Below are positions 8,147 to 29,613 of a stretch of DNA of 64,000 bases, one piece after another. The notes beneath the pieces are model-generated. The model made no database searches. It was not told where the DNA came from and was given only the letters and a program-made list of their open reading frames with translations. Location of the stretch: NCBI RefSeq assembly GCF_002097715.1, contig NZ_CP020740.1, positions 62,001-126,000 on the forward strand. Reading direction: 5' to 3'. The DNA comes from Burkholderia ubonensis subsp. mesacidophila (lineage in GTDB: Bacteria > Pseudomonadota > Gammaproteobacteria > Burkholderiales > Burkholderiaceae). The position numbers and the translations under genes were made by a program. How positions within the stretch are numbered: the first letter of the stretch is position 1; the number at the start of each line of letters is the position of its first letter.

Positions 8147-8500
8147 CTTTCTCTCCAGAGAAAATCGAACAAGGGAATGTCCGGACAATGCCCGGTGGTT
8201 TCGATGCTCAGAACGAGCAAGGAAATCGGCGCGAAGCACTTTCGTCCGCAACCATGTGGTCAGCGCACGAAACAGCTCAGGGCCGATCGAAAGGAAGGTG
8301 CGGGCAGGCCGCGAGGTGGCAGAGCCAGTTGGCTCAGGAATGTCGATGCGTCAGGAACGCGTGATAGAGGTAGAGTAAGCCGCGCCGAAGCGCGGTCCGC
8401 GTGGAATGCTCGCCAATCGGGTACAGCTTTGGCCCCATCGCTCGAACGCAACCGGTTGAGGGACTAAACCGAGAATGCTCCAGAAAATCGTATAGCTTTC
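8147..8500. other. Divergent intergenic region without a supported gene
   Basis: This stretch separates the minus-strand membrane-protein gene from the plus-strand NERD gene. Several short frames exist, but none has a good start or a protein-like composition. It presumably holds the membrane-protein promoter. Confidence 0.45.
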
Positions 8501-8537
8501 TCCGAAACTTGACTTCGAAAATTCGGCGGCAAACTGG
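8501..8537 (+). promoter_or_regulatory. Putative promoter of the NERD gene (CCGAAACTTGACTT)
   Basis: TTGACT at 8509-8514 lies within CCGAAACTTGACTT, identical to the element upstream of the ParM-like gene. GCTTTC also precedes it in both places. The -10 is weak (AACTGG at the right distance). Confidence 0.4.
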
Positions 8538-8569: not shown

Positions 8570-9271
8570 ATGGTCTTGACGATCATTCTTCTTTGCGGTG
8601 CTTGGGCACTGTACAAGCAGTACGCGAAACCCCACCCGCGTCGCATATCGACGCCAGCGGTAACACGGAGTCAAGCATCGGGCAACGAAGGCGAGGCGCG
8701 CGTGAACGACGAACTGCGCCGCATTCTGTCCCAGCTCTGCGGTAGCGACTTCTATGTGCATCCCACGGCGCTGTTGTTGCTTCACGCGCCGGGCACCGAG
8801 TTTCCGACCGCCGAGGTCGATCACCTCGTCGTCACGCCGTTCGGCATCTTCGTGATCGAGACCAAGAACTGGGCCGGCTCGATCCTGCCCGGCCGGACCC
8901 CCGATCTCCTTGTTTGCCACCTGCCCGGCGGCAAGGTGGAGGAGCGCCGCTCGCCGATCAGCCAGAACCGCGCGAAGGTCGCCTTCCTGCGTGGCACGCT
9001 CCCGGCTACGTGGGACGTACAAGGCCTCGGCGTCTTTGCTCACGACGCATGTACCCTTTCCGCTGACCTGCCCCTCGCCCTGGTCACCCTCCGCGACCTC
9101 GGCTACTGGTTGCGAACCCAACGGGATCGGCATGCGAAATCCGGGAATCCGAGCATCAACGTCCCGGCAGCCTGGGGTGTCGTGCGTCGTCTCAGCGTGG
9201 ACGACCCAACCGGATCGGCGCTATCCGCACACCGCCATAAAGTTGCGGGAAATTCAACCGTAAACATATGA
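8570..9271 (+). CDS. Membrane-anchored NERD (nuclease-related) domain protein
   Basis: A 233-residue protein with an N-terminal hydrophobic helix (residues 2-16) and a NERD domain of the PD-(D/E)xK nuclease fold. Visible motifs are GNEGEARV (38-45), the acidic EVDHLVVT (82-89, Asp84) and FVIETKNW (94-101, Glu97 and Lys99). NERD proteins are thought to cut or process DNA, often on plasmids, but most are uncharacterised. GAGG precedes the ATG. It stands alone behind its own putative promoter. Confidence 0.75.
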   Translation: MVLTIILLCGAWALYKQYAKPHPRRISTPAVTRSQASGNEGEARVNDELRRILSQLCGSDFYVHPTALLLLHAPGTEFPTAEVDHLVVTPFGIFVIETKNWAGSILPGRTPDLLVCHLPGGKVEERRSPISQNRAKVAFLRGTLPATWDVQGLGVFAHDACTLSADLPLALVTLRDLGYWLRTQRDRHAKSGNPSINVPAAWGVVRRLSVDDPTGSALSAHRHKVAGNSTVNI

Positions 9272-9499
9272 CCGGCAGTTTACCTTTTCTTACAATCTGT
9301 AACATTTAGTTTCAGATTGACGGCGGGCGTCATTCCGCGAAAGGCACATTGTTTCGTGCAGCTTTCGGCCCCTGATTCGAAAAAGCGCCGCGTAAGCTGG
9401 TGCACACCCCCCCAAGTCTCGCTTCCGTCGGACGGCCCCGCCCAACCCGACTTGCTGCCTAACCCGTGCCAGGGAAGGCCCCTTTTACTGGAGAGCGCT

Positions 9500-10732
9500 T
9501 TGTCCAAGAAAACGTCGAAGTCTGTAGACGACGAAACCTTCAACCCCACCGTCCCCGACAATCCCGCGTCAGATATCGACGAACTCGACCTGCCGGCCAC
9601 GTTTGCGCACGTCCCCGACAAGCTCGAACTCAGTGCCACTGCGCGCGAGGTGTTCGCCGATCTGCCCGAAAACCTGGTTCGGATCATCATCCATGAGAGC
9701 GAGGAGGTCGCGCATTCGACTCGCAAGATCCTGCAGGAACATATGCGGATTGGCGGCAACTTTGCGCACATCCATGCCTCCGTGATCGGGCATTTCGTCA
9801 GTACGCAAGGGGATAGTCGGAAGGTCCGGAACCACGCCGCCGAGCTCGTCTACGCCTTTCTCACCAAGCTCTTCCGCAAATCGAAGTCATCGGTCAGCTT
9901 GTACATCCGGTGCTACAACAAATTCTCGAACAATATTGGCGCGGTCGAAATGCTGACGATCAGCGACATGTCTCTGCTCGTCCACAACCACATCAGCGAT
10001 GAAGTTGTCGAGAAGGTGATCGAGGCAAAGCGCGAGAACCCCGACCTCAGCAAGAGCGAAGTCACACGCCTCATCGCGTCACTGAAGGATCAGATCGCGG
10101 GAAAGGACAACAGCATCGAGGAGGCGACCTCCCAGTTGACCGCCACCGTCGGACGGCTGGACGACGCACAAAGGGAGATCGACCGCCTTTCCGCCGAACT
10201 TTCAAACGTGCGACAGGAACAAGCCCGAGAGAAAGTGAAGGCGCAGGAAACTCAGGTCTCACTCGCCTCGACCGGCAAGCAGGTGAGCACACTGCAGCAC
10301 ACGATCGCGAACAGGGAACGCGAAGTCGAGCAGCTCACCGCCGAAATCGTCAAGCTGAAAGCGAACCCGTTGAAGACCGAAGTCCCGGTGCCGACGCTGC
10401 CGGAGTCCTACACGACCCTGCAGGAAGCGATGTCGGCAAAGCTCGCCGAGTTCGATGCAGCCAGCGCCCAGCTTGAGCAGGCTCAAGCACAACTTTCAGA
10501 GCTTGAGGCCCGCGTGCAGGAGCACCGTGCGTCGATCGAAGCGAGCGAGGTGCTCGAAAAGAAAATCCGCGGGCTGATCGACACCTTCAGCTCGTTCGTC
10601 CAGGACTACCACAGCGCGCAGTTGCTCGCGACCGCTGACGGAAATCCGGCCCGCTTCAAACCGCTGTTTCAGGCATTCAGCGACCTGATCGGCAAGTTCC
10701 ATGGCGAGGTGGCGGCGGCCTTAAGGGCCTGA
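9500..10732 (+). CDS. Long coiled-coil protein, possible DUF3102/KfrA-like DNA-binding protein
   Basis: A 410-residue protein. The TTG at 9500 is chosen because GGAGAG is 5 bases upstream; a longer frame from 9317 has no binding site. Residues about 25-190 are globular and helical, with an element like DUF3102 (NFAHIHASVIGHFV, then KSKSSVSLYIRCYNKF near residue 130). Residues about 200-370 form a heptad-rich coiled coil full of Gln/Glu/Arg. A short helical tail ends the protein. The plan recalls plasmid KfrA-type proteins, which combine DNA binding with a long coiled coil. It lies directly upstream of the FlhDC-like regulator. Confidence 0.55.
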   Translation: MSKKTSKSVDDETFNPTVPDNPASDIDELDLPATFAHVPDKLELSATAREVFADLPENLVRIIIHESEEVAHSTRKILQEHMRIGGNFAHIHASVIGHFVSTQGDSRKVRNHAAELVYAFLTKLFRKSKSSVSLYIRCYNKFSNNIGAVEMLTISDMSLLVHNHISDEVVEKVIEAKRENPDLSKSEVTRLIASLKDQIAGKDNSIEEATSQLTATVGRLDDAQREIDRLSAELSNVRQEQAREKVKAQETQVSLASTGKQVSTLQHTIANREREVEQLTAEIVKLKANPLKTEVPVPTLPESYTTLQEAMSAKLAEFDAASAQLEQAQAQLSELEARVQEHRASIEASEVLEKKIRGLIDTFSSFVQDYHSAQLLATADGNPARFKPLFQAFSDLIGKFHGEVAAALRA

Positions 10733-10781: not shown

Positions 10782-11984
10782 ATGGACAAGAAAAACTCGC
10801 GCGAGACCTACCGGTCGATCGAGCGACTATACGTACCACACTGGCTAACCGAGCGCATCCAGGTGACAAACTTCGACCTCGTCGACCAGATGAAATGGCT
10901 GCTTGAGATGGATGGCGCCTTCAACGACATTCTGGCCGTCGAGCGCAAAGAGATCGACCACGTCAAGCACAACGAGGCGTCGTTGCGAAACCTCTTGCGC
11001 ACGCCATTTTTAATGGTCGCTCCAACCCTCGAGTCGGTGGAGGACTGGCGCTGCTTCGTCGACGATACCCCCACAACCGTCGCGGTCGATCAGCTGTTTC
11101 GCAAACTTCCCCCGCTGGACGCGCTCGCGAAGTTCTCGGTTGAGCACCACAACCGCGTCTTCCTCGATCTGGTCACGAGCGTCATTCACCTGAGCGTGCT
11201 TGCTGCCCCGCTCCTCGGGATCACGACCGAGGTAGCCGCCTACCTTGCGTCGGTACCGACCTACAGACTGAGAATTGCTCTCGGTCGAATGAACGGTCTG
11301 CCGCTGTTCCGGTGGCGCTTCAACTCGACGACGTTTTGGTACCAGTTCACCGCCAGCGATTTGAGCGACGAGATGGTCGCGCACCAGATCATGGCGACCT
11401 CGCCAATCCGAATGAACAGCGCACCCGGCAAGGCCGGTTGGAGCGAACTGCGCCTGCCGCGCGACAAGAACGAGACGTACGCCCACGCCCTGATGGCATA
11501 TGGCTGCCGCGCATCGACGGCCGCCAGCCTGTTCCGGCTGAATCAGAACGCGATGCGCCAGCGGTATGTCGAGATGCACGGCACCAGCTCGCCGTGCGGC
11601 AACACGCCGAACTCGCTCAACTGGTTCGTCGAGACGCCGACCAATCGCCTCCACGGAACGATCTTCACGTGGCTCTACCGCGCCGCGCTGGCGTCCGGCG
11701 CCAACGCACCGCAAGCCCTGATCGCCACCAACGACGTCTACCAGCAGATCTTCGGCGGCCAGCACTCGATCTCCGTCGACCGCGGCTGCAACCTGACTCG
11801 CGCGATGGCAGCAGACAACCGACTCACAATTGCACCGTGCCGGACCTGCCGAACTGAATACATCGTCAGCAATAACGAGACGAAAATCGAGATGCACCAT
11901 AGCTTCGACTGTCCGGCCTGCACGGGGCAGCTTGGCGCGAAACGCCGCGGCGGCAAAGCGAGGGCGCGCAATGAGGAACAGTAA
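10782..11984 (+). CDS. FlhD-FlhC-like fused transcriptional regulator
   Basis: A 400-residue protein that I read as an FlhD-like domain followed by an FlhC-like domain. Residues 122-195 follow FlhD: a helix, then LGITTEVAAYLAS (FlhD: LGINEEMATTLAA), then a second helix and LPLFRWRF (FlhD: LVCHFRF). Residues 230-385 follow FlhC: LMAYGCRAS, RQRYVEMHGTSSPCG (FlhC: LIKLYKELRGSPPPKG), SLNWFVE, an ATNDVYQQIF helix and four zinc-type cysteines 353, 356, 377 and 380 (CRTC ... CPAC). FlhD4C2 is a transcription activator; plasmid relatives (AcaCD, SgaCD) switch on transfer genes. The two overlapping small genes downstream form an operon with it. The N-terminal 120 residues are unassigned. Confidence 0.75.
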   Translation: MDKKNSRETYRSIERLYVPHWLTERIQVTNFDLVDQMKWLLEMDGAFNDILAVERKEIDHVKHNEASLRNLLRTPFLMVAPTLESVEDWRCFVDDTPTTVAVDQLFRKLPPLDALAKFSVEHHNRVFLDLVTSVIHLSVLAAPLLGITTEVAAYLASVPTYRLRIALGRMNGLPLFRWRFNSTTFWYQFTASDLSDEMVAHQIMATSPIRMNSAPGKAGWSELRLPRDKNETYAHALMAYGCRASTAASLFRLNQNAMRQRYVEMHGTSSPCGNTPNSLNWFVETPTNRLHGTIFTWLYRAALASGANAPQALIATNDVYQQIFGGQHSISVDRGCNLTRAMAADNRLTIAPCRTCRTEYIVSNNETKIEMHHSFDCPACTGQLGAKRRGGKARARNEEQ

Positions 11985-12168
11985 CGATCGCCCCGACTCC
12001 GATGCCCTCCCCGACCTGCCGGCGAGCCTGATCGTGATCAACGGCGATCGCAGGCCGCAGTTCGCGTGGTACGACGCCGAGACTGAGCAGTACTACTCGG
12101 AGGCCGACGGGCAAGTCATCGTCGACGTCCGAGCGGCGATGCCGTGGGCGGCGGTCTACGTTCACTAG
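11971..12168 (+). CDS. Small protein overlapping the FlhDC-like gene
   Basis: A 65-residue acidic protein whose ATG lies inside the end of the FlhDC-like gene (14-base overlap). It has Pro/Asp-rich ends and a compact middle (FAWYDAETEQYYSEADG). Not recognised. The overlap implies coupled translation, so it may be a modulator of the regulator. Confidence 0.5.
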   Translation: MRNSNDRPDSDALPDLPASLIVINGDRRPQFAWYDAETEQYYSEADGQVIVDVRAAMPWAAVYVH

Positions 12169-12175
12169 GCGCCCT

Positions 12176-12541
12176 ATGGACGACCTCGCCTACCTCGTCG
12201 CCGAAAGCAATGCCGCCTGGCTCGACGGCCGTGGCGACGGCCGATTCGAGCGATACGAACGGTTCTACCAGTCGCAGCGCGAAACGCAGGCCGAGTCGTT
12301 CGAGCTCGAGCAGATCAACGAAGCCTACCCCGCGTGGGCTGGCAGTCAGCCGCCACCGATGCTCGGACTGCTGGTCAGGCCGTGGTTCGGCAAGGTGCTG
12401 GTCGCACTCACGTGCATGTACGTCGGTGCGCAAGTCGTCCCTGCCGTGTCTTCGGCGATTCCGTACAAGTCGACCGTGCTGTTGGGCGTGGCTTTCGTCG
12501 GGTTGCGGGTATTTCACTGGAAGCGACGACGAGCCAGATGA
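12176..12541 (+). CDS. Membrane protein, last gene of the FlhDC-like operon
   Basis: A 121-residue protein beginning 7 bases after the previous stop. Residues 1-60 are soluble and acidic. Two hydrophobic helices follow (about 70-88 and 95-111), then a basic tail (WKRRRAR). Not recognised. An intrinsic terminator follows. Confidence 0.55.
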   Translation: MDDLAYLVAESNAAWLDGRGDGRFERYERFYQSQRETQAESFELEQINEAYPAWAGSQPPPMLGLLVRPWFGKVLVALTCMYVGAQVVPAVSSAIPYKSTVLLGVAFVGLRVFHWKRRRAR

Positions 12542-12555
12542 GCGCCAAAACTTGA

Positions 12556-12580
12556 TTCCCGCCCTATGGCGGGATTTTTT
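12556..12580 (+). terminator. Intrinsic terminator
   Basis: TCCCGCC-CTAT-GGCGGGA followed by TTTTTT, 15 bases after the stop of the membrane-protein gene. Confidence 0.9.
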
Positions 12581-12678
12581 GCCAGAACCCCATTAAGTCT
12601 GATGAAATCGGGCCGTAATTTAGAATTGGCGGTTTTTTGGCTCGCCCAAGCCATTTTGAAAAGTGGGCCGTCGGCCAC

Positions 12679-12712
12679 GCGAACTTGACTTCGCCGCCGC
12701 GTCCGTAGGATG
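12679..12712 (+). promoter_or_regulatory. Putative promoter of the CAP lipoprotein gene
   Basis: GCGAACTTGACTTCG resembles the shared CCGAAACTTGACTT element (8502-8515). TTGACT at 12685-12690 could pair with TAGGAT at 12706-12711, at a short 15-base spacing. Confidence 0.35.
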
Positions 12713-12762
12713 GAATCAAGGGTTCGCAAGGTGCGCACCCGACAACAAAATGAGGACCAACA

Positions 12763-13812
12763 ATGAAGAAGATCACGACCATCAGCCTTTCTGCCCTTTC
12801 GGTAGCGACGGTTCTGGCGCTCGCAGCATGCGGCGGAGGCGGTGGTGACGGTAGTGGCAGTTCCAACGGTGCGCCGAGCAGCAATTCTGGCTCCTCGGGC
12901 GGGAACTCCGGATCGTCCGGCGGCGGCTCGACGCCGCCTGCCGTGCCCGGTACGGTCGGTAGCCCTCAATACAGCACACAGAGCGCGCAACTTGCCGCAT
13001 TCAATTTGCTGAACCAGTACCGTCAACAGTGCGGCTTCCCTGCCCTCAAGCAGAACACCGTGCTCGATCAAGCCGCCCAGAATCACGCAAAATACATTGG
13101 GCTCAATGGCGCGGTGACAGATTCGGAGCTGGCCGGAAATCAAGGTTACACGGGAGCCAGCTATGTTGATCGGGCGACCGCGGTGGGTTTTCCGAATGGC
13201 CCTATTGGAGTCGGAGCTAGCGGAGCCGGGAACGCCGTATTCACGAGCAACTTCAATGCGGCCCTTGCTGGGCAACAGTTCGTCTATTCGCTGCTAGGTG
13301 GCGCATACCACGCCGTCGTTGCTGCATTCCCGGTCGATAACGCGGGTTTCGGCGAGTATGAAACTCAGGCCAGTTCGGGCTCCTACACCTATACGGAATC
13401 TTGGCAGTCGATCAGTCTGTACAGCACAAGCGCGCAGACGATTCAAAACGGACCGAAAACGTTCCCATGTGATGGCGTGACCGGTGTCCCGTATCGCGAG
13501 GTTGGTGAAATTCCGGCTCCTCCGAACGTATCGTCGTCTGGCTCGGGCACTCCGATCGTCGTGATGGGTAACCTCTCCGACTCAATCACGCTGCAATCCG
13601 CATCCATGACTGGACCGTCCGGTGCTGTTGCAATTCAAATTCTCAATGCGAACACCGATCCGAACAAGCTACTCGGCAAGTATCAGGCGATTGCATATCC
13701 GACCTCGCCGTTGTCGCCTAATACCACCTACAGCGTATCAGTTACGGGCACGGTGAACGGCACCTCGTTCTCCCGGACCTTCTCGTTCACGACTGGGAAT
13801 GTCGTCGGCTGA
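12763..13812 (+). CDS. Secreted lipoprotein with a CAP (SCP/PR-1) domain
   Basis: A 349-residue lipoprotein. The signal peptide ends at the lipobox LAAC (Cys23). A Gly/Ser-rich linker runs to about residue 55, then a CAP/SCP domain (AAFNLLNQYRQQCGFPALKQN, DQAAQNHAKYI) to about 240. The final 90 residues look like an immunoglobulin/fibronectin-type beta module (PLSPNTTYSVSVTGTV). CAP proteins are extracellular; many bind lipids or walls and their activity is rarely known. It lies between the FlhDC-like operon and the end of the pilus operon, so a surface role in cell contact is an inference. It has its own promoter and terminator. Confidence 0.8.
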   Translation: MKKITTISLSALSVATVLALAACGGGGGDGSGSSNGAPSSNSGSSGGNSGSSGGGSTPPAVPGTVGSPQYSTQSAQLAAFNLLNQYRQQCGFPALKQNTVLDQAAQNHAKYIGLNGAVTDSELAGNQGYTGASYVDRATAVGFPNGPIGVGASGAGNAVFTSNFNAALAGQQFVYSLLGGAYHAVVAAFPVDNAGFGEYETQASSGSYTYTESWQSISLYSTSAQTIQNGPKTFPCDGVTGVPYREVGEIPAPPNVSSSGSGTPIVVMGNLSDSITLQSASMTGPSGAVAIQILNANTDPNKLLGKYQAIAYPTSPLSPNTTYSVSVTGTVNGTSFSRTFSFTTGNVVG

Positions 13813-13876: not shown

Positions 13877-14539
13877 TCATAGCCCCCAGGGCGCAGTCGG
13901 GAGGCGACTCCATCCGTAACCGATGACATGAAGGTTATTATCGATTACGCATCCAAACTCCACCGGCCAAACTCCTGAATGCCCCATCGCTATAACCGCC
14001 CGGGTTCCATTCGGGCTGATGACATCACCGAAAACGTCATCGTGATCAACGAGGGTTGAACCAAGGTCCGTACTCATGGAGACGGATCCCCATGCCCACA
14101 TATCATTCGAGTACGTGACGAATTTGGAAGGCGTAAAGCTCGGGTACGGCGCAGGATTCGCGAAATACAGCGCCCTGCATTGCGAAAGTGGCGTCGCAGA
14201 CGGCTGCGGGGTTACATGCGGAGTGCAGGTTGGCTGGGTCCAACTGGAACCGCTCCACGAGGACGGTAAGACCATATCGTAACCACTCGGACAAGCAGGG
14301 GGTGCCTGATAATTGCATTGCGGTGCACTCCAACGCGATCCCTGCCAGACTGCCGCTGAAACTGTTGTCCAGCCCGCCCCGGACTGGCACTGCGGCTGGG
14401 GAATCGGTGCATTCTGGATCGGTGTCGTGCACGAAGAATCCTGGTACCCGTAAGAGCAACGGACTGGCGCTGCGTCAGCCCGGGCCACTAAGGCCAGCCA
14501 AACAGCGAGCGCAAAAAGCACTCGCGGCATAATTGTCAT
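13877..14539 (-). CDS. Secreted Cys/Trp-rich protein at the end of the pilus operon
   Basis: A 220-residue exported protein with a signal peptide (MTIMPRVLFALAVWLALVARADA). The mature N-terminus has a two-fold repeat of about 35 residues containing W-(S/V)-x-W-x-x-P-x-C (AVWQGSRWSAPQC and SWSGSSWTQPTC). An unrelated C-terminal domain follows. It starts 12 bases after pilV, as the last gene of the operon. Position and repeats suggest an adhesin or pilus-tip accessory. Such Trp/Cys repeats also occur in PilV-type tip proteins. Confidence 0.55.
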   Translation of the reverse strand: MTIMPRVLFALAVWLALVARADAAPVRCSYGYQDSSCTTPIQNAPIPQPQCQSGAGWTTVSAAVWQGSRWSAPQCNYQAPPACPSGYDMVLPSSWSGSSWTQPTCTPHVTPQPSATPLSQCRALYFANPAPYPSFTPSKFVTYSNDMWAWGSVSMSTDLGSTLVDHDDVFGDVISPNGTRAVIAMGHSGVWPVEFGCVIDNNLHVIGYGWSRLPTAPWGL

Positions 14540-14551
14540 TCTTTCTCTCCG

Positions 14552-15766
14552 CTAAAACGCGCAGTAGGTCTCGGCGACAGCCGAACCGGCGATACCGCTA
14601 TCACTTCCATCCGTAATCCATACGGTCCACGGTCCTGATCCAGACGTCGTGACGTTCACCGTCGCGGTTGTGTCGACATAGACGTTCTGCAGGTTCACGA
14701 CAATTTGCGGGGTTCCACCCGCCGAGCAAGACGGGGCCGGCACCCCCCAACCGTTTTGCACGACATAGTAGTTGTAGCGAAGCGCTGTGCCCCCGATCGG
14801 CAACCACACGTGGTCCTGGCAGGACAGCCATTGCCCGCGGCCGTCGGTATTCTGAGCACCATCACCGTTGATTGGGCACCAGGTTCTCGGCACAGCAACG
14901 GCTCCCGGCCGCACTACGCCTTCTGAAATCACGTCACCCGAATGCAAGGGCGCGTAAGTCGAGGTCCCGTCCTTGAGTACCTGTAGCGAACCGCTCTGAT
15001 AGACGTTCGTGTTTCCGGACCCGTCGTTCGCGATCCGAGAAACGTTTCCGTTGGTGCTCGAGAGCAGTTGCGCACCCTGTACGTTGCCGGTCGCCGTCAG
15101 GTTCTTCAGGTTGTTGATGCTGACGCCGTTGGCGTTCTGGTCGCCCGTCCAGGTCAGCGAACCGTCGCGCCGGATATAGACGGAATTGCCGTCCGTCGTT
15201 GGCCCGTTCGTCGCCATCACGACCGCTGCCGGCGCGCCGGGTACGGGATTGGCCGCGTTCCACGCGCCGTTTAGCCCGAAAACCGTCGCCGAGTTCTGTG
15301 CCTTCGAGAAGCCGAATCCGTTGCCGGCGGCCTGCGCGACGATACCCGCGCCCGCGACATCCGGCTGCCCATCCCTCGTCACCGGCTTCGACGGGTACAG
15401 GAGATAGCTGACACGACATCCGCTCGCACTGGTCGAACAGCCAGCCGGCCCGACACTCATTTGGACCGTGTACGTGCCGCCCCAGAACGGACCCGCCGCG
15501 TAATTTGCCTTCAGGTAGCCGGAGGACTGCAGTTGTGCCAACGTCGGCGGCGTAACGGCCGTCGGCCCGGGCGCAACCAGTTGAGCGACCAAGTTGCCAT
15601 AGTTGTCGGTCACCCAGTTCGCCAGGGCAGCATTGATGACCGCTTCGTTCTTCCCTTCGGCAGTCAGCACCTCGCGCCGGCGCTTCGCCACGTCATCCTT
15701 GATGCCCTGTAACGTCAAGAAGGCCATGGCGACGAGCACAATCGTCGTTTCGATGATGCTGAGCAT
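14552..15766 (-). CDS. pilV: PilV-type minor pilin / pilus-tip adhesin
   Basis: A 404-residue type IVb minor pilin. The N-terminal hydrophobic helix MLSIIETTIVLVAMAFL carries the pilin Glu. Residues about 25-180 form a pilin-like head. The C-terminal half is rich in Asn/Gly/Thr with short beta repeats and Cys, like the receptor-binding tails of shufflon PilV proteins. No inverted 19-bp shufflon repeats are visible in or after the gene, so it appears fixed. There is no leader before the hydrophobic helix: a stop codon lies just upstream in frame and AGGACAGG precedes this ATG. Confidence 0.75.
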   Translation of the reverse strand: MLSIIETTIVLVAMAFLTLQGIKDDVAKRRREVLTAEGKNEAVINAALANWVTDNYGNLVAQLVAPGPTAVTPPTLAQLQSSGYLKANYAAGPFWGGTYTVQMSVGPAGCSTSASGCRVSYLLYPSKPVTRDGQPDVAGAGIVAQAAGNGFGFSKAQNSATVFGLNGAWNAANPVPGAPAAVVMATNGPTTDGNSVYIRRDGSLTWTGDQNANGVSINNLKNLTATGNVQGAQLLSSTNGNVSRIANDGSGNTNVYQSGSLQVLKDGTSTYAPLHSGDVISEGVVRPGAVAVPRTWCPINGDGAQNTDGRGQWLSCQDHVWLPIGGTALRYNYYVVQNGWGVPAPSCSAGGTPQIVVNLQNVYVDTTATVNVTTSGSGPWTVWITDGSDSGIAGSAVAETYCAF

Positions 15767-15775
15767 CGCCTGTCC

Positions 15776-16372
15776 TCAATGGTCGTGGGTCGCGTACATC
15801 ACGACGCTCGCTGTTGCGCCCGCCGACGCGCAGGCGCTGGCTGACGCGCTCGAGCTGTACGTCGTACCCGGCCCCGAGATGGTCGTGTTGTTCACCTTGA
15901 CCATCGTGTAGGCGGACGCGATCGCGTCCGCCGAGAGCGTGCAGACTGTCGAAGGAACCGGATAGGTGACTGCCACGGCGTCGTTAGACGCGGTCACCGT
16001 GGCTGCTGCTGCGGTCACGGGGCCACCGAAGAGCCCGGTCAACGCACCGGTCGTGGTACTGAGACGGCGGCCCGCGGAATCGAACGCGTGGTTCTGGGTC
16101 AGCGACAGCATGGACACACTGGCGAAATCGACATCGCCCGACGTAGCGTCCTGAATCCCACTGCGGAAATACTGCGCCTCGCTCTTGAACTGGAAAGCGT
16201 GGACGCGATCCATGATGTAGCCGCGCCCCATATACGCGACGAGCGTGATCAACGCAGCAGCAGCCATGACGGCTGCGGCCTCGACCAGCGACAGCTCCCC
16301 CTTTTGTCGACGGAGCCCTTTCCCGACAAAACGCGGCCGACTCATCGGTTTCTTGCTGGTTTGCTTCATCAT
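15776..16372 (-). CDS. pilS: Type IVb major prepilin PilS
   Basis: A 198-residue prepilin. A basic leader of about 23 residues ends in RRQKG, then ELSLVEAAAVMAAAALITLVAYMG forms the pilin helix. The head resembles PilS (YFRSGIQDAT near residue 80), with paired cysteines in the C-terminal half. Type IVb pilins normally read G-LSLIE; here an extra Glu sits between Gly and Leu, so the cleavage point is unclear. The start is one of two adjacent ATGs after AGGAG; the second (16369) has the better spacing. Gene order pilR-pilS-pilV matches R64-type operons. Confidence 0.8.
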   Translation of the reverse strand: MMKQTSKKPMSRPRFVGKGLRRQKGELSLVEAAAVMAAAALITLVAYMGRGYIMDRVHAFQFKSEAQYFRSGIQDATSGDVDFASVSMLSLTQNHAFDSAGRRLSTTTGALTGLFGGPVTAAAATVTASNDAVAVTYPVPSTVCTLSADAIASAYTMVKVNNTTISGPGTTYSSSASASACASAGATASVVMYATHDH

Positions 16373-16379
16373 TCGACTC

Positions 16380-17513
16380 CTAGAATTTCTGATTGATAGA
16401 GGTAGAGGCACCGTCAAACGCGACAGCACCGGTTGCGAAGTACGACCCCACGCCAAGTGTCAGGAACATCAGCGCCGCCCCCGCGAGGAGCACGTAATGG
16501 GTCACTTTCGCGTTGCGCCGAACGGCCTCGACAACGCGGGTCAGCGAGTTCTGCCCGAGATCCTTGATGGACTCGACGAACTGATCGCGCCCGGCGGCGT
16601 CGGTCATGATGTCGATCGTGCGTTCCGAGAAGATCCCGGTATCGAGCGCGCGCATCGGTTGGTCTGGGTTCGCCGTCAGTCGCGCGTTCATGCGGTGGAG
16701 GTGCCATCGCATCCACGGATCGGCAGATTTCGTCAATTTGTTCAGCGCTGCGCGCAACGGCATGTTTGAATCAAACAATCCCGCCAACGACACAATCAGC
16801 AGCGCAGCGCGCAGATCGCGGCGATTGCGCCACATCAGCGGCATCGCGTCGACTCGGTTGCGCAGTTCACCGGTCCATCGTTTGAGCGTGTGAAAGTACG
16901 CTGTCACCAACGCCGCAACGATCGAACCCGTCAGCCACCAGTACTCTGCGCAAAACGTGTCGACCGCATAAACGAACTGGCCGAACGCGGACCATTTCTC
17001 CAGTGGTTTCACGTCGAGCGTCGCCGGCAGGATCTCGGCGCCGAATAGCACGAGGAAGCCGTACAGATAGACGAGCAGGAAGGCCGGGTAAGCCATCTGC
17101 ATCGACGTCGTGCCGGACAACACGCCCTTTGCGTGTGCAGCCATCTCCGCAAGCTCGAGGCCCCGTACCGCCGCATCGTCACGCGGCGACTGTCCTGCCA
17201 ACTCCAGCAGCGTGAACTCGTCATTTGGTACAAACGGTTTGATCGCGACCGCGAAATCGTCCCCGGCACGCATGCGCTGTGCGATCTTCTGGAAAGCTAG
17301 CCACGCCATGTTCTTGCGGGAGCGATGCCGCTGCTCCAGCGTCGTCAGTCGCTCGAGTAACGTTTCACTGTTGCGCAGCCCTTTCTTCGCGACGTCGAGG
17401 CGGGTCTCGCGATAGAACATTTCGCGCATAGCGCGAAAGCGCCAGGTCGCGACGCGCATGCGTTCGTTTGCCGGCAACATCATGGAGGCTGAGTAAATGA
17501 GCGACTTCATCAC
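16380..17513 (-). CDS. pilR: Type IVb pilus inner-membrane platform protein PilR
   Basis: A 377-residue GspF/TcpE-type platform protein that links the assembly ATPase to pilin insertion. Transmembrane helices lie near residues 140-160 (PAFLLVYLYGFLVLFG), 188-210 and 345-370, separated by cytoplasmic GspF-like helical bundles. The start overlaps the pilQ stop by 4 bases. The length is normal for PilR. Confidence 0.85.
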   Translation of the reverse strand: MMKSLIYSASMMLPANERMRVATWRFRAMREMFYRETRLDVAKKGLRNSETLLERLTTLEQRHRSRKNMAWLAFQKIAQRMRAGDDFAVAIKPFVPNDEFTLLELAGQSPRDDAAVRGLELAEMAAHAKGVLSGTTSMQMAYPAFLLVYLYGFLVLFGAEILPATLDVKPLEKWSAFGQFVYAVDTFCAEYWWLTGSIVAALVTAYFHTLKRWTGELRNRVDAMPLMWRNRRDLRAALLIVSLAGLFDSNMPLRAALNKLTKSADPWMRWHLHRMNARLTANPDQPMRALDTGIFSERTIDIMTDAAGRDQFVESIKDLGQNSLTRVVEAVRRNAKVTHYVLLAGAALMFLTLGVGSYFATGAVAFDGASTSINQKF

Positions 17514-19771
17514 GACGGCAGCCCCCCACCCGCCTCCGGAAACACGCGATACAGGTCAAACGCGCTCATCGATTCGTCGATGTACCGCGGATCAATAACC
17601 CCACACGCAGCCTTGTACAGCGCGTGCTCATAAACCGTCTTGCCTGTCATGTCCGGGTTGCCAAACTCGGACTTGCGGCTCGTCCGCCACACGTGTTCCG
17701 CTCCGCGCCAGTCGCGCGCCGCGACGCGATCGAGGAATTCAGGCGTCGGCTGGTACAGTTCCATTGCGAGCGTTTGTCCCTTGATCCCGGCTGCCACCTT
17801 GCCCGAACGGGTAAGCAGGCCCGGTCGGCGGCAATGCTGGCACCCCTCTTCGTCGCGGCAAGCCATCTTCGACGTGTCGAGACCGAACTTCTTCTCGAGA
17901 GTGGCGAGTTGCTGCGGCGACAACACGTCGCGTGCCGGCCGCTTGCAGTGCGGACACAACTTCGGAATGAGCTTCTGGTTGCCGACGGCGTTCAGAAATT
18001 TCCCGGACGCGACTTCGTCCATCGGCAGCTTGAGGCGACCGCCCACCAGCCGCATCACCGCACCGATGATGTTGTCCCCGTGCAGCGTGGCCCGAACCGG
18101 GTGACCGGTCAGCGCGAGTTCGGCGACCAGGCCAGCGAGCACCGCATCGCGCACTTCGCCGATCGTCAGGTCGTCGGGGTCCATCCGCATCAGCGTGCGA
18201 ATCACTTCCACGATCTTCCGGTTTGCGTCTTCCTCGGTCTCCCCGGGCCGCCTCTGGATCGAAATATCAGACAACCACGGCGCGGGTATTTCGGACGGCT
18301 CGTTGACTGCAAACTGCTTCTTCCGGTCCCGGTCGGGGAGCAGGTACGACAGTGCGCGCAAGAGCGTCGTCTTGCCGGAACCCGTTTCCCCTGTCAGGAA
18401 GGTCGCCCCGCCGCTGACTTTGCCGAGCGTCTCGATGATCGCCAGTTGGCTCGGCTCCAGGCCCATTTCCTCCGGGAGCAGCACCTTGTAGTTCTTGAAG
18501 TTGCCGTCGAGCAGTCGCAGCGCGACGTCGAAACCGCCGACGGTTGGCGCACTCTGCCAGCGAATATTTACGATATCCATGTGGGCGACCAGCGGGATCA
18601 TCGCGGACTGCGGCGCGGTCGGCTGAAACGTCTCGCCCGAGTTGGTATTGCGTTGGACCAGATCCTGATACGCCGCGGATAGCGCGCGGCGCACCAGCGC
18701 CTTCGGCATCTTGCGGTACGAATAGAGGTCGCCGTCGACGCGCAGCCGCAGCTCGACCTCGTCCACGTAATCGCGGTACTCCCAGTGCGCGTCGGTGGCG
18801 CCGTAGGCATGCGCTGCCTCCAGCACATCGCGAAAGGTGCCGATAGCGCGGGACGATTCGGGAACCACGTTGGCCGCCCGCTGTTTCTCCTTGTCGTAAA
18901 GCGCAGCGATGACGTCTTCGTCCGCGACCATTTCTTCGTGAACGGCAATGTCCGCACGCCCGAGATCCTTCAGATATGTGGCGTACAGCTGGCTCTCGTG
19001 AAAGCGCTGCGTCGTCACGACGATCGAGATCCCGGCCTGCAGCTCGACGGCGATGAACTCGCGGCGCGCCGCGTCGGTGATTCGAAGCGCGGCATTCGGA
19101 TCGCGCTGGCACAAGATCCGCTTGAACTGGAGTGCTTCAGCCGAAACCAATTTCGGCAGACCGATGCCGACCTCCATGGCTGGCGGCTCGACGAGATCCG
19201 GGCCGACACGGCGAATCGTGGGGGGCTCGTCAGCCTCGGACGTCGGGCACGCCTCAGTCGCGTCGTCTACACGCACGTCGCCCGTCGGCCGCTCTGCCAC
19301 GGGGTCCATCACCTCATCCGCATCTTCTCGGTTCGTGAGCGTGCGCATATCATCGCCCTCGCCCCTTGATTGCGGTTGGTCGGCACCCGTCACCGGCGTT
19401 GCAACGACATCGGCGCTGCCCGGATCAGAAGCCGCATGCGCGTGGCGGTCTTCTCGTACCGGTGCAAACGGCGCATCGTCGACAACGACGACGTCTTCGA
19501 CGTCCGCCTCCGCCATTCGCAACAGCATACCCATCGTCATCGGCTGACCTTCCATCGCCTGACGCGGGTTCTTCGGCTTGCTGGTCGACCTGAACCGCGG
19601 CTCCTGCGGCTCGAACGGCGACGCTGGTTCATCGATATCAGCGGGTGGCTTGCCGACGATCGGCATTGCGCCGGCGGACGGCTCGATAAAGCCGGCCTTC
19701 AATGCTTTGAGCCGTCCAAAAAGGCCGCGCTTGGCCTTCTCCGGAACTTCGTGATCTGCGAACATGCTCAT
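17510..19771 (-). CDS. pilQ: Type IVb pilus assembly ATPase PilQ
   Basis: A 753-residue GspE/VirB11-superfamily ATPase driving pilin polymerisation. An acidic N-terminal extension of about 220 residues is longer than in most PilQ. Walker A GETGSGKTT lies near residue 460, Asp/His boxes follow, and a tetracysteine zinc site (CPHC near 606, CQHC near 640) marks it as an assembly rather than a retraction ATPase. GGGAGGG precedes the ATG, which overlaps the pilP stop by 4 bases. It is the only complete secretion ATPase seen in the window. Confidence 0.9.
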   Translation of the reverse strand: MSMFADHEVPEKAKRGLFGRLKALKAGFIEPSAGAMPIVGKPPADIDEPASPFEPQEPRFRSTSKPKNPRQAMEGQPMTMGMLLRMAEADVEDVVVVDDAPFAPVREDRHAHAASDPGSADVVATPVTGADQPQSRGEGDDMRTLTNREDADEVMDPVAERPTGDVRVDDATEACPTSEADEPPTIRRVGPDLVEPPAMEVGIGLPKLVSAEALQFKRILCQRDPNAALRITDAARREFIAVELQAGISIVVTTQRFHESQLYATYLKDLGRADIAVHEEMVADEDVIAALYDKEKQRAANVVPESSRAIGTFRDVLEAAHAYGATDAHWEYRDYVDEVELRLRVDGDLYSYRKMPKALVRRALSAAYQDLVQRNTNSGETFQPTAPQSAMIPLVAHMDIVNIRWQSAPTVGGFDVALRLLDGNFKNYKVLLPEEMGLEPSQLAIIETLGKVSGGATFLTGETGSGKTTLLRALSYLLPDRDRKKQFAVNEPSEIPAPWLSDISIQRRPGETEEDANRKIVEVIRTLMRMDPDDLTIGEVRDAVLAGLVAELALTGHPVRATLHGDNIIGAVMRLVGGRLKLPMDEVASGKFLNAVGNQKLIPKLCPHCKRPARDVLSPQQLATLEKKFGLDTSKMACRDEEGCQHCRRPGLLTRSGKVAAGIKGQTLAMELYQPTPEFLDRVAARDWRGAEHVWRTSRKSEFGNPDMTGKTVYEHALYKAACGVIDPRYIDESMSAFDLYRVFPEAGGGLPS

Positions 19772-20352
19772 TGCGCCCTCCCGATCGGCGTACCGGGCAG
19801 CGGCCCTCCTCCCGGCAACGGAGAATTAAGATCGATCAGTGATCGAATCGCGGTCGTCGCTGCGGACGGGACCGGCGCAACACCACGAATCGGCTCCTTT
19901 CGGGTGCTGCCGCCTTCGGCGACCGTCACGGTGTAGCCGTCCACATTCTTGACGACCCAGCCATTGAGCAAGGTCGTGCCAACGTGCGCCGGATAGATCG
20001 CATCTCGATACGCGTACAGAACGTACGAACCGGTCTCGTCGCGATACGCGCCCAGAAACGACACGGGCTCTGCGCTGGCTCGAGGGGCGCGCGCCGGCTT
20101 ATCCGCCGGTTTCGGGGTCCCTGGGACGGCAGGGCCGCTTGCCGAAATACCAGGTTGCAGCGTCGTCATGCCGCCAGCGTTTGGTGGGAGTGCCGAAGCG
20201 CCCGGTGCGCCTCCGGACAGCTGACGCACGACGTTGGCTCGCGCAATCTGGTCGATATCGTCGATCGACAGGCGAGGCGCTGCCGGGTCCGCGTGGGCGG
20301 TCACGGCGACCCCTACACCCGCAACGACGAGTGCGTGCTTAATCGTAAACAT
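19768..20352 (-). CDS. pilP: Type IVb pilus periplasmic protein PilP
   Basis: A 194-residue exported protein with a signal peptide (MFTIKHALVVAGVGVAVTAHA), a Pro/Ala-rich linker and a C-terminal GspC/PilP-like beta domain (LNGWVVKNVDGYTVTVAEGG). PilP aligns the inner-membrane complex with the secretin PilN. The start at 20352 has AAAGG upstream and overlaps the pilO end by 14 bases. A longer frame from 20430 would bury the signal peptide. Confidence 0.8.
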   Translation of the reverse strand: MFTIKHALVVAGVGVAVTAHADPAAPRLSIDDIDQIARANVVRQLSGGAPGASALPPNAGGMTTLQPGISASGPAVPGTPKPADKPARAPRASAEPVSFLGAYRDETGSYVLYAYRDAIYPAHVGTTLLNGWVVKNVDGYTVTVAEGGSTRKEPIRGVAPVPSAATTAIRSLIDLNSPLPGGGPLPGTPIGRAQ

Positions 20353-21670
20353 AGAATTTGCCTTTCGCGGTGAAATGGACGCCATACGGCGAGTCGCCTG
20401 TTTCGCTGTTCGTCGTCGCCCCAACCGCATCGTTGAGACGGAGTTCGACTTTCAGTGATTCGAGCGTCATGTTGGGCGGAAGCTTCGCGAGCAGCGGGGC
20501 TTGCCAGCGAAAGCCCTCGATCGCCCAGTCGCCCTGCTTGATCAAGCGGCCGCCGTGACCGCCCTGTCCGCCGGCAGGGGCATCAACAAGGAGCGGGCGG
20601 GCTTCGCCGAGCGTTACGGTGTAACCGTATGCGCGGAGATCGAACGGATGCGACGACATGCGCTGCGGCGGCGTTTGCAGCATCTCGATGAAGGCCTGTT
20701 CCGACGGCCATTGGGACGACTCCTCGGGCGACAGCATGTGCACCTTGGGAACCGCCGGCCCGCGCGCAGTGGACGTGCGCCCGTCCCGCGAAAACGTCAC
20801 TGGTCGCATCGCCGGTGTCGCCGCCCCGTCAAAATCCTCGAACGTGCCGCCTTGCCGCCGAAAGGTCATCGTGCAATAGCCAGACGACGGACAATCCGCC
20901 TCCCTGAAAATCCACCCTTTGCGCACTGTTTCACTGCCACCCACGGCCACGAGCAAGGCGGGCGCAAGCGCCGATGCACGCGGCAATGCGTGTGAGAACG
21001 TGCCGCGTACGGCTTCGGCATAACGCTCGGCGTAAGTCGGCACGTGTGGAGGCGGCGGCGGCGGTGACAAAACGTCCATCAGCTTCAGACCGCCGAAGAC
21101 GGTTGTGCCCACGATAGCGAGCACCGGAAGCGCCGTCGGAATCGCAACCGGAACCTTCGCGATCCGCCCGGCTTTCCGGTTCGCGAGCAGCTCGCTCGCT
21201 TGAAAAGGTTCGTCGACGTCGCTCACCTGGTCGCCGACGCCCAGCGTCGCCAGCGGCAGATTGCTGCGCAGGCATTCCTGTTCAATCTCGAGCCGGCGCG
21301 CCTGTGCGGTTTCGGGGGACAACACCTCGTCGCTTCGGACCGCACCGCGCACCACGAACACTGCGTGCACGCGTACGCCGTCCTGCAGCAGCACCAGCGC
21401 CGCAGGCCTGGACTTGATTCGATCGTGCAGCGCAATTCGCGCGGCTCCCGAATACAGCCGCGCGCCCTTGACGTCGGCTGGCTCGGGCATGGCGAAGCCG
21501 CCGATCAGCTCCGTTCCGACCTTGTACTCGACGAAATGGGTCGCATCAAAAGCGTCGGCGTAGCGGCGCCGGTCGGCGCGCCCGCCCTTGACGGGGTAGG
21601 CCCGCCAGTCGAGGCCGAAGACGAGCCGCGCGCGTTTGTCAGTCGGCAGGGGTTCCGTAATGTGCATCAT
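20339..21670 (-). CDS. pilO: Type IVb pilus biogenesis protein PilO
   Basis: A 443-residue PilO2-type protein. The N-terminal cytoplasmic region (about 1-180) is actin/PilM-like in character, a hydrophobic helix follows (VPVAIPTALPVLAIVGTTVFGG, about 182-203), then a Pro-run and a periplasmic domain. It forms the inner-membrane assembly complex with PilP, PilR and PilQ. It begins 4 bases after the pilN stop. Confidence 0.8.
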   Translation of the reverse strand: MMHITEPLPTDKRARLVFGLDWRAYPVKGGRADRRRYADAFDATHFVEYKVGTELIGGFAMPEPADVKGARLYSGAARIALHDRIKSRPAALVLLQDGVRVHAVFVVRGAVRSDEVLSPETAQARRLEIEQECLRSNLPLATLGVGDQVSDVDEPFQASELLANRKAGRIAKVPVAIPTALPVLAIVGTTVFGGLKLMDVLSPPPPPPHVPTYAERYAEAVRGTFSHALPRASALAPALLVAVGGSETVRKGWIFREADCPSSGYCTMTFRRQGGTFEDFDGAATPAMRPVTFSRDGRTSTARGPAVPKVHMLSPEESSQWPSEQAFIEMLQTPPQRMSSHPFDLRAYGYTVTLGEARPLLVDAPAGGQGGHGGRLIKQGDWAIEGFRWQAPLLAKLPPNMTLESLKVELRLNDAVGATTNSETGDSPYGVHFTAKGKFYVYD

Positions 21671-21674
21671 TGCG

Positions 21675-23279
21675 TCACATCGACGGAACGACCGTCGCCT
21701 TCAGCATGATGATCTGGAACGTCTTCGACTTGTTCCAGGCCCCGGTAAACCCGCCGATGCCAGAATTCGTCGTGCTGTCCGCGTGGTCTGTCATCGCTCC
21801 ATACAGAACGACCGTCTGCCCGTCCGACAACGCGATCGTCTGGTCGTCCTTGGTGCCGATAGTGTGCGCCAGCTGGATCTGTTGCTGCGTCTGGCCGGAT
21901 CCGACACCAGCGCTCGTGAAGGGCCCGTTCAGCTTCGAGCTATCCGCCCAGTACGCGAGAACGATTTGATTGTGGTCGTTGACCGCCGGCAGTACGTTCA
22001 CGAAATCACCGGTCGTGATCGTGCCCGGCGTCAGGCCCGGTACGCCACCCGATGTCGAGTTGAGGGTGCCGGCTGACGGCGCCGTCGAGCGCAGGTAGTC
22101 GTCGCTCTGGAACGAGGCGACCGACACGGGCAGCCCGTTCAGCGTCATTTTGGTTAACGTATTGTCCTGCACGGTTCGGCCGTACTTGTTGAGCGCATTG
22201 ACCACTGCGTTTGTACCGGAGAACGGCGCGTCCGGGCGCAACACCGAGACCCCGACGGAGCCGCCGCCCGTCGCGATCGACGTCGGCGACATGAAGCTGA
22301 TCGCGTAGCGCGCGAGGCCTGCATGCATCGACTGAAACACAACGTCCGCATTCATGCCCGCCTGGCTGCCGTTATTCAGCGCGATCTGGATCGTGCGTAC
22401 CGTGATCGCGACCTGGCGCGTCGATATGGCGTTCTCGCGCTGCAACAGCTTGCCGATGTTGTCCGCCGCTTCCTTCGTGTCGCGCACCATCACGAGTCGA
22501 CTCTGCGGGTTCACGCTGACACGACCCATCGGCGAGCGCAGCTTTTCGATTTCCGCGGTAATGGCCGCGATCTGGTCGAAATCGCCCTCCCGCCCTGTCG
22601 AGGTCTGCGCAGAGAACGAACCGGTGTTGCCGCCGGACCCGCCGCCCGAGCCGCCGTTGGACTGATTGCCCGTCGACGTGTCCATACCCTTGCTCATCGT
22701 CGATTTGATCGACACCTTGCCCGGGATCGCAGCGATCTGGTACATCCGCGTCACAAACCGGGACACGTTGATCGTGCCGCCGTCGAACGACCAGTCGAGA
22801 CCGAGATCGGACGTCATGCTCTTCATGTAGAGGCCGACCTTGCCGGTAAAGGCTTGGCGGTAGACGGGTTCTTCCGTCTTCGCGCCGCTGCTTTGGGTCT
22901 TCCCGTCACCTTGGCCAGGCACGAGCGAGTCACGCGACACGAACACGTCCGGGCTCAGATGCACCGGATAGCCAGTGGCCGTCGAAACCAGCGTCGCGAT
23001 TTGCTTTATTCCAAGGTTCGCCGGAAGCGTAACGGCCTTCTCGCGGAACACGGCGGGCAGCGTTGCCTCGTACGCAAGTGGGACGAGTCTGTCACCAAGG
23101 AAGGCAGTCGGCACGTCCTCGACGAGCGCCATCGACGCCGGGCCCTTCGCCAGTGCGTCGCTGATCACGCGATGCGCGGCATCGTAACTGTCATTCACGT
23201 CCTGCTGCGTCACCGCACAGCCGGCGGCCAGCAGAGCGGCCCCGATCGCCACGGCGGATTTCAAAAGGTGCATGCGCAT
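21675..23279 (-). CDS. pilN: Outer-membrane secretin lipoprotein PilN
   Basis: A 534-residue type IVb secretin. The lipoprotein signal peptide ends in LAAGC. N-domain modules follow (about 60-180), then a Gly/Ser-rich low-complexity loop near 215-240, and the secretin core with conserved stretches (TREGDFDQIAAITAEIEKL, RTVQDNTLTKMTLNGLPV, NVLPAVNDHNQIVLAYW). It forms the gated outer-membrane pore for the pilus. The ATG at 23279 gives a proper lipoprotein leader. Confidence 0.9.
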   Translation of the reverse strand: MRMHLLKSAVAIGAALLAAGCAVTQQDVNDSYDAAHRVISDALAKGPASMALVEDVPTAFLGDRLVPLAYEATLPAVFREKAVTLPANLGIKQIATLVSTATGYPVHLSPDVFVSRDSLVPGQGDGKTQSSGAKTEEPVYRQAFTGKVGLYMKSMTSDLGLDWSFDGGTINVSRFVTRMYQIAAIPGKVSIKSTMSKGMDTSTGNQSNGGSGGGSGGNTGSFSAQTSTGREGDFDQIAAITAEIEKLRSPMGRVSVNPQSRLVMVRDTKEAADNIGKLLQRENAISTRQVAITVRTIQIALNNGSQAGMNADVVFQSMHAGLARYAISFMSPTSIATGGGSVGVSVLRPDAPFSGTNAVVNALNKYGRTVQDNTLTKMTLNGLPVSVASFQSDDYLRSTAPSAGTLNSTSGGVPGLTPGTITTGDFVNVLPAVNDHNQIVLAYWADSSKLNGPFTSAGVGSGQTQQQIQLAHTIGTKDDQTIALSDGQTVVLYGAMTDHADSTTNSGIGGFTGAWNKSKTFQIIMLKATVVPSM

Positions 23280-23284
23280 GGTTC

Positions 23285-23830
23285 TCAGTCCTGGCAGTTG
23301 CCCGCGCGCGCGATCACGCGGATGACGTTGTTGGTGTGTCGGCACGCGCGCGTGGGCGTGCGCATGTGGTTCGTGGCCTTCATGACCTGCTCGAGGACAG
23401 ACGTGAAGTCTCCCGAGAACGCTGCGTTGAACTCGAGCGGCAGGTCGTCATCAATCTTCCAGGCCAGTTGCCAGCCCTGTTGCTGCAGCCAGCGATCGAG
23501 CGCATCGCGCAGGTTGACGTCCTGCGGCGTAACCGAAAAGGTCAGCGTGCTGGGAGACCGCGGCGCTCCCGCTCCAGGCAGCACGACCGCGGCAACATCG
23601 GTCGCGTTCGACGCCTGACTCGAAAAGGCGTTGGCTGCCGGCGCAGCGACAGCTGGCGTTGCGTCCGGCGAGCCGCTCACTGCCGATGGCTGAGCCGTAG
23701 CTTTCGGCGCCGCGGTAAGAAGCTGCCAACCGTCAGGATCAACTGCCGCACGAACATGAACGGCCGTTGCGAAGAGGGACACGGCAGCGAGGACGCGCAC
23801 CAGCGCGCGGGTTCGGGTGGTGATCTGCAT
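23285..23830 (-). CDS. TcpQ/PilL C-terminal-type pilus protein
   Basis: A 181-residue exported protein: signal peptide (RALVRVLAAVSLFATAVHVRAA), low-complexity linker, then a TcpQ-C domain in the last 85 residues (LTFSVTPQDVNLRDALDRWL, WQLAWKIDDDLPLEF, FSGDFTSVLEQVM). TcpQ-type domains help secretins reach the outer membrane. In R64 this domain is the end of PilL, a much larger lipoprotein, so here PilL functions may be split between this gene and the one at 24255. It starts 2 bases after the transglycosylase stop. Confidence 0.75.
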   Translation of the reverse strand: MQITTRTRALVRVLAAVSLFATAVHVRAAVDPDGWQLLTAAPKATAQPSAVSGSPDATPAVAAPAANAFSSQASNATDVAAVVLPGAGAPRSPSTLTFSVTPQDVNLRDALDRWLQQQGWQLAWKIDDDLPLEFNAAFSGDFTSVLEQVMKATNHMRTPTRACRHTNNVIRVIARAGNCQD

Positions 23831-23832
23831 GA

Positions 23833-27615: not shown

Positions 27616-27622
27616 ACCGTCC

Positions 27623-29211: not shown

Positions 29212-29613
29212 CGCGGAGTTCCAATTGGTACGGATCAATTGGAACAGCGGGGGCGACCGCGGCACTTGGGAAAAGAGCGGTGATTTCAGAGACCTTTTCG
29301 CGACCGGTACATGAGCAAGCGCGACGACCGCGAGCACCCAACCGGTTGCATGGGATGAAGGAGAAAGCCACCAAAAATAGGCGAGCTTTCCGGTCTTGCT
29401 TTTGCGTCTACAACGATAAAATCGGGACGCCGATCGTTGCACGCGTTGCACGCAGAACGATGACCGTCACGTAAGGACGATCACTGCAAGTTTTTTAAAA
29501 AACAATGACTTGCGATCGATCGTCGTTCGAGACATACCGGTGTACCGCCACAACCGGTTGCGCGGCATTTTTCAGAAACCGCAACAATCTGTGGCAAACG
29601 ACAGTCCGCCTCT
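29212..29613. promoter_or_regulatory. Divergent control region between virB8 and the KorB-like gene
   Basis: About 400 bp with several dyad or tandem elements. CGTTGCACG is repeated in tandem at 29436-29453. GCAAGT at 29486-29491 and ACTTGC at 29508-29513 flank an AT-rich core (TTTTTTAAAAAA). GATCGATC lies at 29514-29521. These are candidate operators for the divergently encoded KorB-like regulator, controlling the VirB/pilus operon. No gene is seen here. Confidence 0.5.

Follow-up and report, generated by a model that had tools for sequence, protein, structure and literature searches.

FlhD4C2 is a textbook multi-chain activator. It is the flagellar master activator, and structures are available for the complexes of Escherichia coli (2avu) and Cupriavidus necator (8j56). 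Like FlhDC, the FlhC/FlhD-kind regulators AcaCD of IncA/C plasmids and SetCD of SXT/R391 integrative and conjugative elements (ICEs) are activators (PMC9962212, PMC4207636, PMC4344509). AcaCD and SetCD have sites upstream of transfer operons, acaB of IncC plasmids is inducible by AcaCD (PMC11493245), and in BisDC of ICEclc an FlhC-like subunit controls transfer within a positive feedback loop (PMC7423338). Here we describe a plasmid gene in which this kind of regulator is encoded as one chain. The gene lies in a 64,000-nucleotide stretch of Burkholderia ubonensis subsp. mesacidophila (NZ_CP020740.1, positions 62,001 to 126,000; hereafter the window, to whose numbering all positions refer unless stated otherwise), at 10782-11984 on the + strand. 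Its 400-residue product has an FlhC domain preceded by an FlhD domain, D2, and by a degenerate FlhD-like domain, D1, and is called D-D-C below. We think it probable that D-D-C is the single-chain counterpart of AcaCD and FlhD4C2, a dimer, (D-D-C)2, that would bind a conserved 28-bp dyad, box B, and activate conjugation genes.

The gene, which starts with ATG, is real, being conserved near full length in both of our protein searches and in plasmid records, and it lies exactly where an original prediction, made from the window sequence, had placed it. That prediction had proposed a true fusion of FlhD and FlhC in one chain, and this was borne out. The AlphaFold2 (AF2) model of the whole chain is confident (predicted local distance difference test score (pLDDT) 89.7, predicted template modelling score (pTM) 0.89), and residues 224-384 (11451-11933, +) are shown by the structure search of the model to have the FlhC fold; Pfam FlhC (PF05280) matches residues 232-382 at 46.8 bits, against a cut-off of 27. 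The motif YVEMHGTSSP is present at 262-271, and a CxxC...CxxC arrangement spans residues 353-380 (11838-11921, +), with four cysteines (C353, C356, C377 and C380) that are zinc-type by sequence. These four, together with N30, N124, R179 and F180, are invariant in an alignment of 100 sequences (from 112 proteins, omitting eight short and four near-duplicate ones; two further alignments comprised 88 of 95 proteins, seven short ones being omitted, and 46 of 47 N-terminal pieces, without L024, whose frame is apparently interrupted). A zinc-finger protein of another family was ruled out, given the FlhC match above the Pfam cut-off and a BigR match (E 0.17) far below its own. The flagellar FlhC equivalog (NCBIfam NF009365) scores 46.2 bits, below its cut-off of 216, and the domain is therefore FlhC-like rather than flagellar FlhC.

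D2 occupies residues 111-205 (11112-11396, +) and contains the expected FlhD motifs, LLGITTEVAAYLAS at 144-157 and FRW at 176-178. Pfam FlhD (PF05247) gives no match on the regulator at E up to 10, and neither Pfam nor NCBIfam makes a call on the FlhD half; it is detected by profile methods. The original prediction would have been refuted by another fold here or by a zinc domain of another family; the structure search of the model showed residues 111-193 to adopt the FlhD fold, so that profile homology and modeled fold together identify D2 as FlhD. A library of viral structures returned no matches at E 0.001 or less.

The segment before D2 had been described as a novel 120-residue extension. 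We found instead that residues 20-108 (10839-11105, +) resemble another FlhD domain, a moderately supported assignment. In the full-chain model D1 repeats D2 element by element; aligning the D1 profile with that of D2 keeps the two in register and places the invariant N30 on N124; and in a structure search with D1 alone the FlhD chains of both FlhDC entries rank first and second by Z. In the search with the full model there is no separate FlhD row over D1, which the tool does not count as absence. The fusion is thus probably not 1:1, and a new stoichiometry is not forced: with a chain that reads D-D-C, a plain homodimer would give the usual D4C2 ratio.

The protein is widespread. A single-sequence search found 94 relatives and a profile search 109, with identity down to about 40%, and 101 of the 109 are single chains of at least 380 residues (the other 8 are shorter, as are 7 of the 94). 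The prediction had placed the gene on a plasmid, and the window indeed sits in a 153-kb contig (C4) of a 7.84-Mb genome whose C1 contig additionally encodes two ordinary FlhD+FlhC pairs (G000:C1 236477 and 900035). In a plasmid collection, 47 records carry D-D-C, each covering at least 80% of the query, and all belong to genera of the Burkholderiaceae (18 Cupriavidus, 14 Burkholderia, 9 Paraburkholderia, 4 Caballeronia and 2 Robbsia), with pHG1 and pMOL28, whose homologs are about 34% identical, among them; 26 of the 47 are typed as conjugative. Scanning one genome per species, we found 48 loci, of which two are short partial matches; all have titles of Burkholderia, Paraburkholderia, Caballeronia or Cupriavidus. 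Public annotation calls the protein an FlhC family regulator, so the FlhC half was already known; this work adds the FlhD domains, the D-D-C order and the operator. Our literature searches, whose coverage mostly excludes subscription papers, listed no account of a single-chain FlhD-FlhC regulator, of the D-D-C gene on pHG1 or pMOL28, or of transfer control in this plasmid group.

Comparison of promoter regions revealed the candidate operator, box B, with the form GAAWGCT-N14-AGCTTTC. With up to two mismatches it occurs at six places in the window (12 strand matches against 0.38 expected, a number equaled by none of 100 shuffles), all outside genes as set here. The promoter of the regulator's own operon has two on the + strand, a perfect match at 8473-8500 and one with one mismatch at 8404-8431. 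Another (1754-1781, +; one mismatch) precedes the gene for PRTRC protein D, to which homology extends from 2015, and one lies 152 bases upstream of virB8 (29363-29390; one mismatch), with counterparts in the virB8 regions of pHG1, pMOL28 and those labeled contam, ceno and vietG4. The remaining two, with two mismatches each, are between the NERD-domain gene and the likely start of the coiled-coil gene (9339-9366; at the same place in loci L052, L126, L128, L129 and L130) and in no open reading frame (ORF) of at least 90 residues (30806-30833). The boxes at 9339 and 29363 are inside the longest open frames, yet upstream of the homology-based starts at 9500 and 29211.

In the whole genome, the pattern RAAWGCY-N14-AGCTTTY matches exactly at five places, all on C4, and a backwards control nowhere. 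Besides the box at the D-D-C operon (C4 70473), these are 152 bases before virB8 (C4 91363), 141 bases before virB11 (C4 40646), 141 bases before PRTRC ParB (C4 55096), and more than 900 bases before the next gene tested (C4 56685). The original prediction had also pointed to three TTGACTT promoters. The heptamer alone was rejected as a signal, three copies being seen with 4.18 expected, but two of them, each a putative -35 element, sit 6 bases (1788-1794, +) and 8 bases (8509-8515, +) downstream of the dyad, which is itself far above chance. For the third, at 12685 before the CAP gene, no box B was found on the + strand of 12401-12800 with up to five mismatches.

Box B is also shared between lineages. 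Among 65 Burkholderia genomes, all 7 with D-D-C have three to five box B places. Scored with a Cupriavidus matrix, all 9 D-D-C operon promoter regions from Burkholderia and Paraburkholderia surpassed the best of 100 shuffles, as did 5 of their 7 virB8 regions; the exceptions are viet2 and the window, where the region as cut starts at 29452 and so missed the site at 29363. Conversely, the operon and virB8 promoters of pHG1 and pMOL28 pass with a Burkholderia matrix (4 of 4). Box B was first noticed in both lineages, and these comparisons are therefore a check of scores rather than a blind discovery.

Two further genes travel with D-D-C. The coiled-coil gene upstream of it is present on 43 of the 47 plasmids (E 1e-5), and an AcaB-like gene, named AcaB or DUF1845 in several records, on 42 (gene names follow the annotation of the records, and the overlaps were compared by eye). 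All six of the upstream regions of AcaB-like genes that we examined contain an element, M2 (TCGATGCGTCnnnGACGC), followed 63-64 bases later by box B, which on pHG1 falls inside an annotated, possibly overlong, gene. Box B at the regulator's own operon and before the AcaB-like gene suggests, by analogy, positive feedback as in IncC plasmids.

We suggest that D1 and D2 pair within the chain like the two subunits of the FlhD homodimer, and that two chains join through FlhC to give (D-D-C)2, equal by domain count to D4C2. By analogy with the behavior of FlhDC, AcaCD and SetCD (PMC9962212, PMC4207636, PMC4344509), this complex would be a class II activator, binding box B upstream of the -35 box; on binding itself we lean only slightly toward yes. 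Its targets may include two secretion operons, the AcaB-like gene and its own operon, where self-activation could make conjugation a self-reinforcing switch. The bolder proposal, to which we give an even chance, is that one gene constitutes a complete FlhD4C2-type activator, with the D1-D2 pair replacing the FlhD homodimer, the 2:1 ratio fixed covalently and the D domains specialized, D1 free to diverge and D2 kept for FlhC; together with an AcaB-like partner and a shared dyad, it would be the master conjugation switch of a Burkholderiaceae-wide plasmid family that includes pHG1 and pMOL28. If so, nature has provided a single-chain version of FlhD4C2 with a fixed D:C ratio, one expressible unit for structural work in which the role of each FlhD copy can be asked because the two have diverged, and a likely transfer switch and a testable DNA site can be named for a large plasmid group.

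The likeness to FlhD4C2 thus extends to the FlhC fold with its CxxC...CxxC, the FlhD fold in D2 and probably D1, the implied 2:1 ratio of D to C, and a dyad operator. In contrast to the two chains of FlhD4C2, D-D-C is one chain, encoded on a plasmid in a genome that has its ordinary pairs elsewhere, and its 28-bp dyad differs from the FlhDC operator, AAYGSSNNAAATAGCG-N10-12-CGCTATTTNNSSCRTT (PMC9962212). With AcaCD and SetCD it shares residence on a mobile element and candidate sites upstream of transfer operons, and with AcaCD an AcaB-like gene preceded by box B on most of the same plasmids, a link that is only suggestive. Unlike these regulators, it has two D domains, a different motif and a distribution seen in the Burkholderiaceae; because it is one chain rather than separate C and D subunits, we set it apart from the AcaCD class and liken the two only in their working. 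As in BisDC, an FlhC-like subunit would control transfer through a positive loop.

Separate chains also appear to be the usual form among eleven regions with weaker FlhC-family genes that we fetched from other Burkholderiales genomes, since in nine (L134, L135 and L137-L143) the FlhD profile matches a separate ORF just upstream (E 5.7e-4 to 0.93, several weak). In each of these two-chain pairs one FlhD-like stretch was recognized. In L133 an FlhD look-alike was seen by eye only, and in L136 none was seen. The separate FlhD-like proteins of L142 (2249-2860, -) and L143 (1956-2438, -), upstream of FlhC-like genes, have an N-terminal extension before the FlhD motif, and are possible relatives of an intermediate form.

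How far does this support a chain with two FlhD domains that acts at box B? Several observations weigh against it. On the protein side, D1 has no match to the FlhD profile (probability 0.4), its D1-D2 profile score is reached by 6 of 200 shuffles, and D1 modeled alone is poor (pLDDT 64.6, pTM 0.41) and yields Foldseek E-values of 7.1 and 7.6. With the extensions of the L142 and L143 proteins, these values would fit a 1:1 D-C fusion in which FlhD is represented by D2 alone, preceded by an unrelated helical extension of 110 residues, and which assembles in a new stoichiometry, for example D2C2. The repeat of D2 in the confident model, the alignment in register and the top-ranked FlhD chains all argue the other way; an unrelated fold for D1 is disfavored, and we consider the 1:1 fusion unlikely. 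On the DNA side, box B has only an AAYGS-like half in common with the FlhDC consensus. Of the 58 Burkholderia genomes without D-D-C, 47 lack box B and 11 have one or two places; the backwards control matches in 23 of the 65 genomes (3 of the 7 with the protein, 20 of the 58 without), so one or two matches can be background. Three of the 11 (G122, G127 and G138) have box B near related secretion genes. The G127 plasmid (L144, G127:C4) retains virB8-10 and the virB8 box B without a D-D-C gene; no FlhC-family gene was found in G127 outside its C1 contig. Nor was virB4 found, so that its transfer system may be broken or decaying (only five genomes without D-D-C were searched for FlhC and four for virB4). 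This plasmid shows that box B can persist after loss of the regulator or exist without it. Co-occurrence tracks the whole plasmid family rather than the D-D-C gene alone, in genomes that are related to one another. Scored with the Cupriavidus matrix, upstream regions from other genomes exceeded all of 20 shuffles in just 24 of 45 cases (of 46 loci, L016 was too short to score), and those of Caballeronia mostly did not. On the plasmid of the window itself, the AcaB-like gene is preceded by a weak box (one matrix scores it 15.1, with a shuffle maximum of 15.7; the other 11.8, with 11.2). Pfam AcaB on that gene is below cut-off (13.5 bits against 27, E 0.06; two of six members match weakly), and the AcaB name is thus only a lead.

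With the coiled-coil and AcaB-like genes co-occurring nearly as well as D-D-C, either product could bind box B. It is thus possible, though we doubt it, that D-D-C is a transfer activator that acts elsewhere, at box A, M2 or an unseen site, and that box B belongs to the coiled-coil, AcaB-like or ParB-type helix-turn-helix (HTH) protein. Box A and M2 are conserved too, and the G127 plasmid would fit such a division of labor. Box B is, however, kept from Burkholderia to Cupriavidus, whereas the pHG1 and pMOL28 regions showed no box A of that form. A search for M2 with up to two mismatches found none in the virB8 regions of the contaminans plasmid and C4, both of which have box B, a pattern that fits an AcaCD-like target set rather than an AcaB-like one. 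A repressor or plasmid-maintenance regulator could also be imagined, because sites also occur at PRTRC, NERD and other backbone genes: box B lies upstream of the genes for PRTRC-D, PRTRC ParB and the coiled-coil protein, and a weaker box is just 39 bases before virB11. We find this improbable given that FlhDC, AcaCD and SetCD are activators and that the boxes at 8473 and 1754 stand just upstream of -35-like sequences. The boxes before virB8, virB11 and PRTRC ParB are some 140-150 bases from the starts, unlike the spacing at 8473 and 1754, and the longer distance at virB8 and virB11 is a gap in the class II reading of D-D-C.

Across the plasmid collection, D-D-C usually has a type IV secretion/pilus operon as its neighbor. 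The proximity to a VirB/type IVb pilus operon noted in the original prediction is confirmed by synteny and Pfam matches, and activation of that operon by D-D-C may occur. The operon is convergent (13877-29211, -), with Pfam matches for VirB8, CagX, TrbI, T2SSE and TcpQ, and PilS below cut-off; its VirB genes are virB8, virB9 and virB10. The virB8 start at 29211 is set by homology, the frame being open to 29451, and the starts of virB11, PRTRC ParB and PRTRC-D are likewise supported. Across the regions that we read, from Burkholderia to Cupriavidus, the genes follow in the order coiled-coil gene, D-D-C, small genes, usually CAP, and the convergent operon (for contaminans, the bounds of a few unlisted pilus and virB genes were filled in by eye); on pHG1 the coiled-coil position is filled by a gene without detected similarity, and in the savannae region insertion sequences separate the coiled-coil and D-D-C genes. 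Upstream of the regulator and in the same direction lie a NERD-domain gene (8570-9271, +; Pfam NERD 4.5e-17) and, in the same operon, the coiled-coil gene (9500-10732, +), whose frame is open from a TTG at 9317 and whose contaminans homolog aligns from the TTG at 9500; its domain search gave coiled-coil matches alone, none above cut-off. Two small ORFs follow the regulator (11971-12541, +), the first overlapping it, an arrangement annotated likewise in L121, L122, L126, L129 and L130. A ParB/SopB-type HTH gene, with matches below cut-offs, diverges from virB8 (29614-30189, +).

Other DNA elements were also noted. In L124/L121 (NZ_CP090639.1 84203-85052), 13 copies (up to four mismatches) of an iteron-like repeat, GAACCATAGACGTTCACC, precede a replication gene; the repeat was not found on the window's contig. 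Box A, a palindrome (CAACCGGTTG), lies exactly 26 bases before many Burkholderia box B sites, including those of the regulator's operon (8447-8463, +) and of virB8 (29337-29353, +; two mismatches), and occurs again at 29546. Other palindromes take its place in other plasmid groups, and because of this variation it was rejected as a conserved operator of D-D-C. M2 (TCGATGCGTCnnnGACGCG) is found 61 bases before the box at 8404 (8343-8361, +; one mismatch) and 64 bases before that at 1754 (1690-1708, +), a spacing of 61-64 bases that recurs at several promoters. It is also present at C4:22961, 44506 and 55033, with every match on the + strand and mostly in promoter regions of backbone genes.
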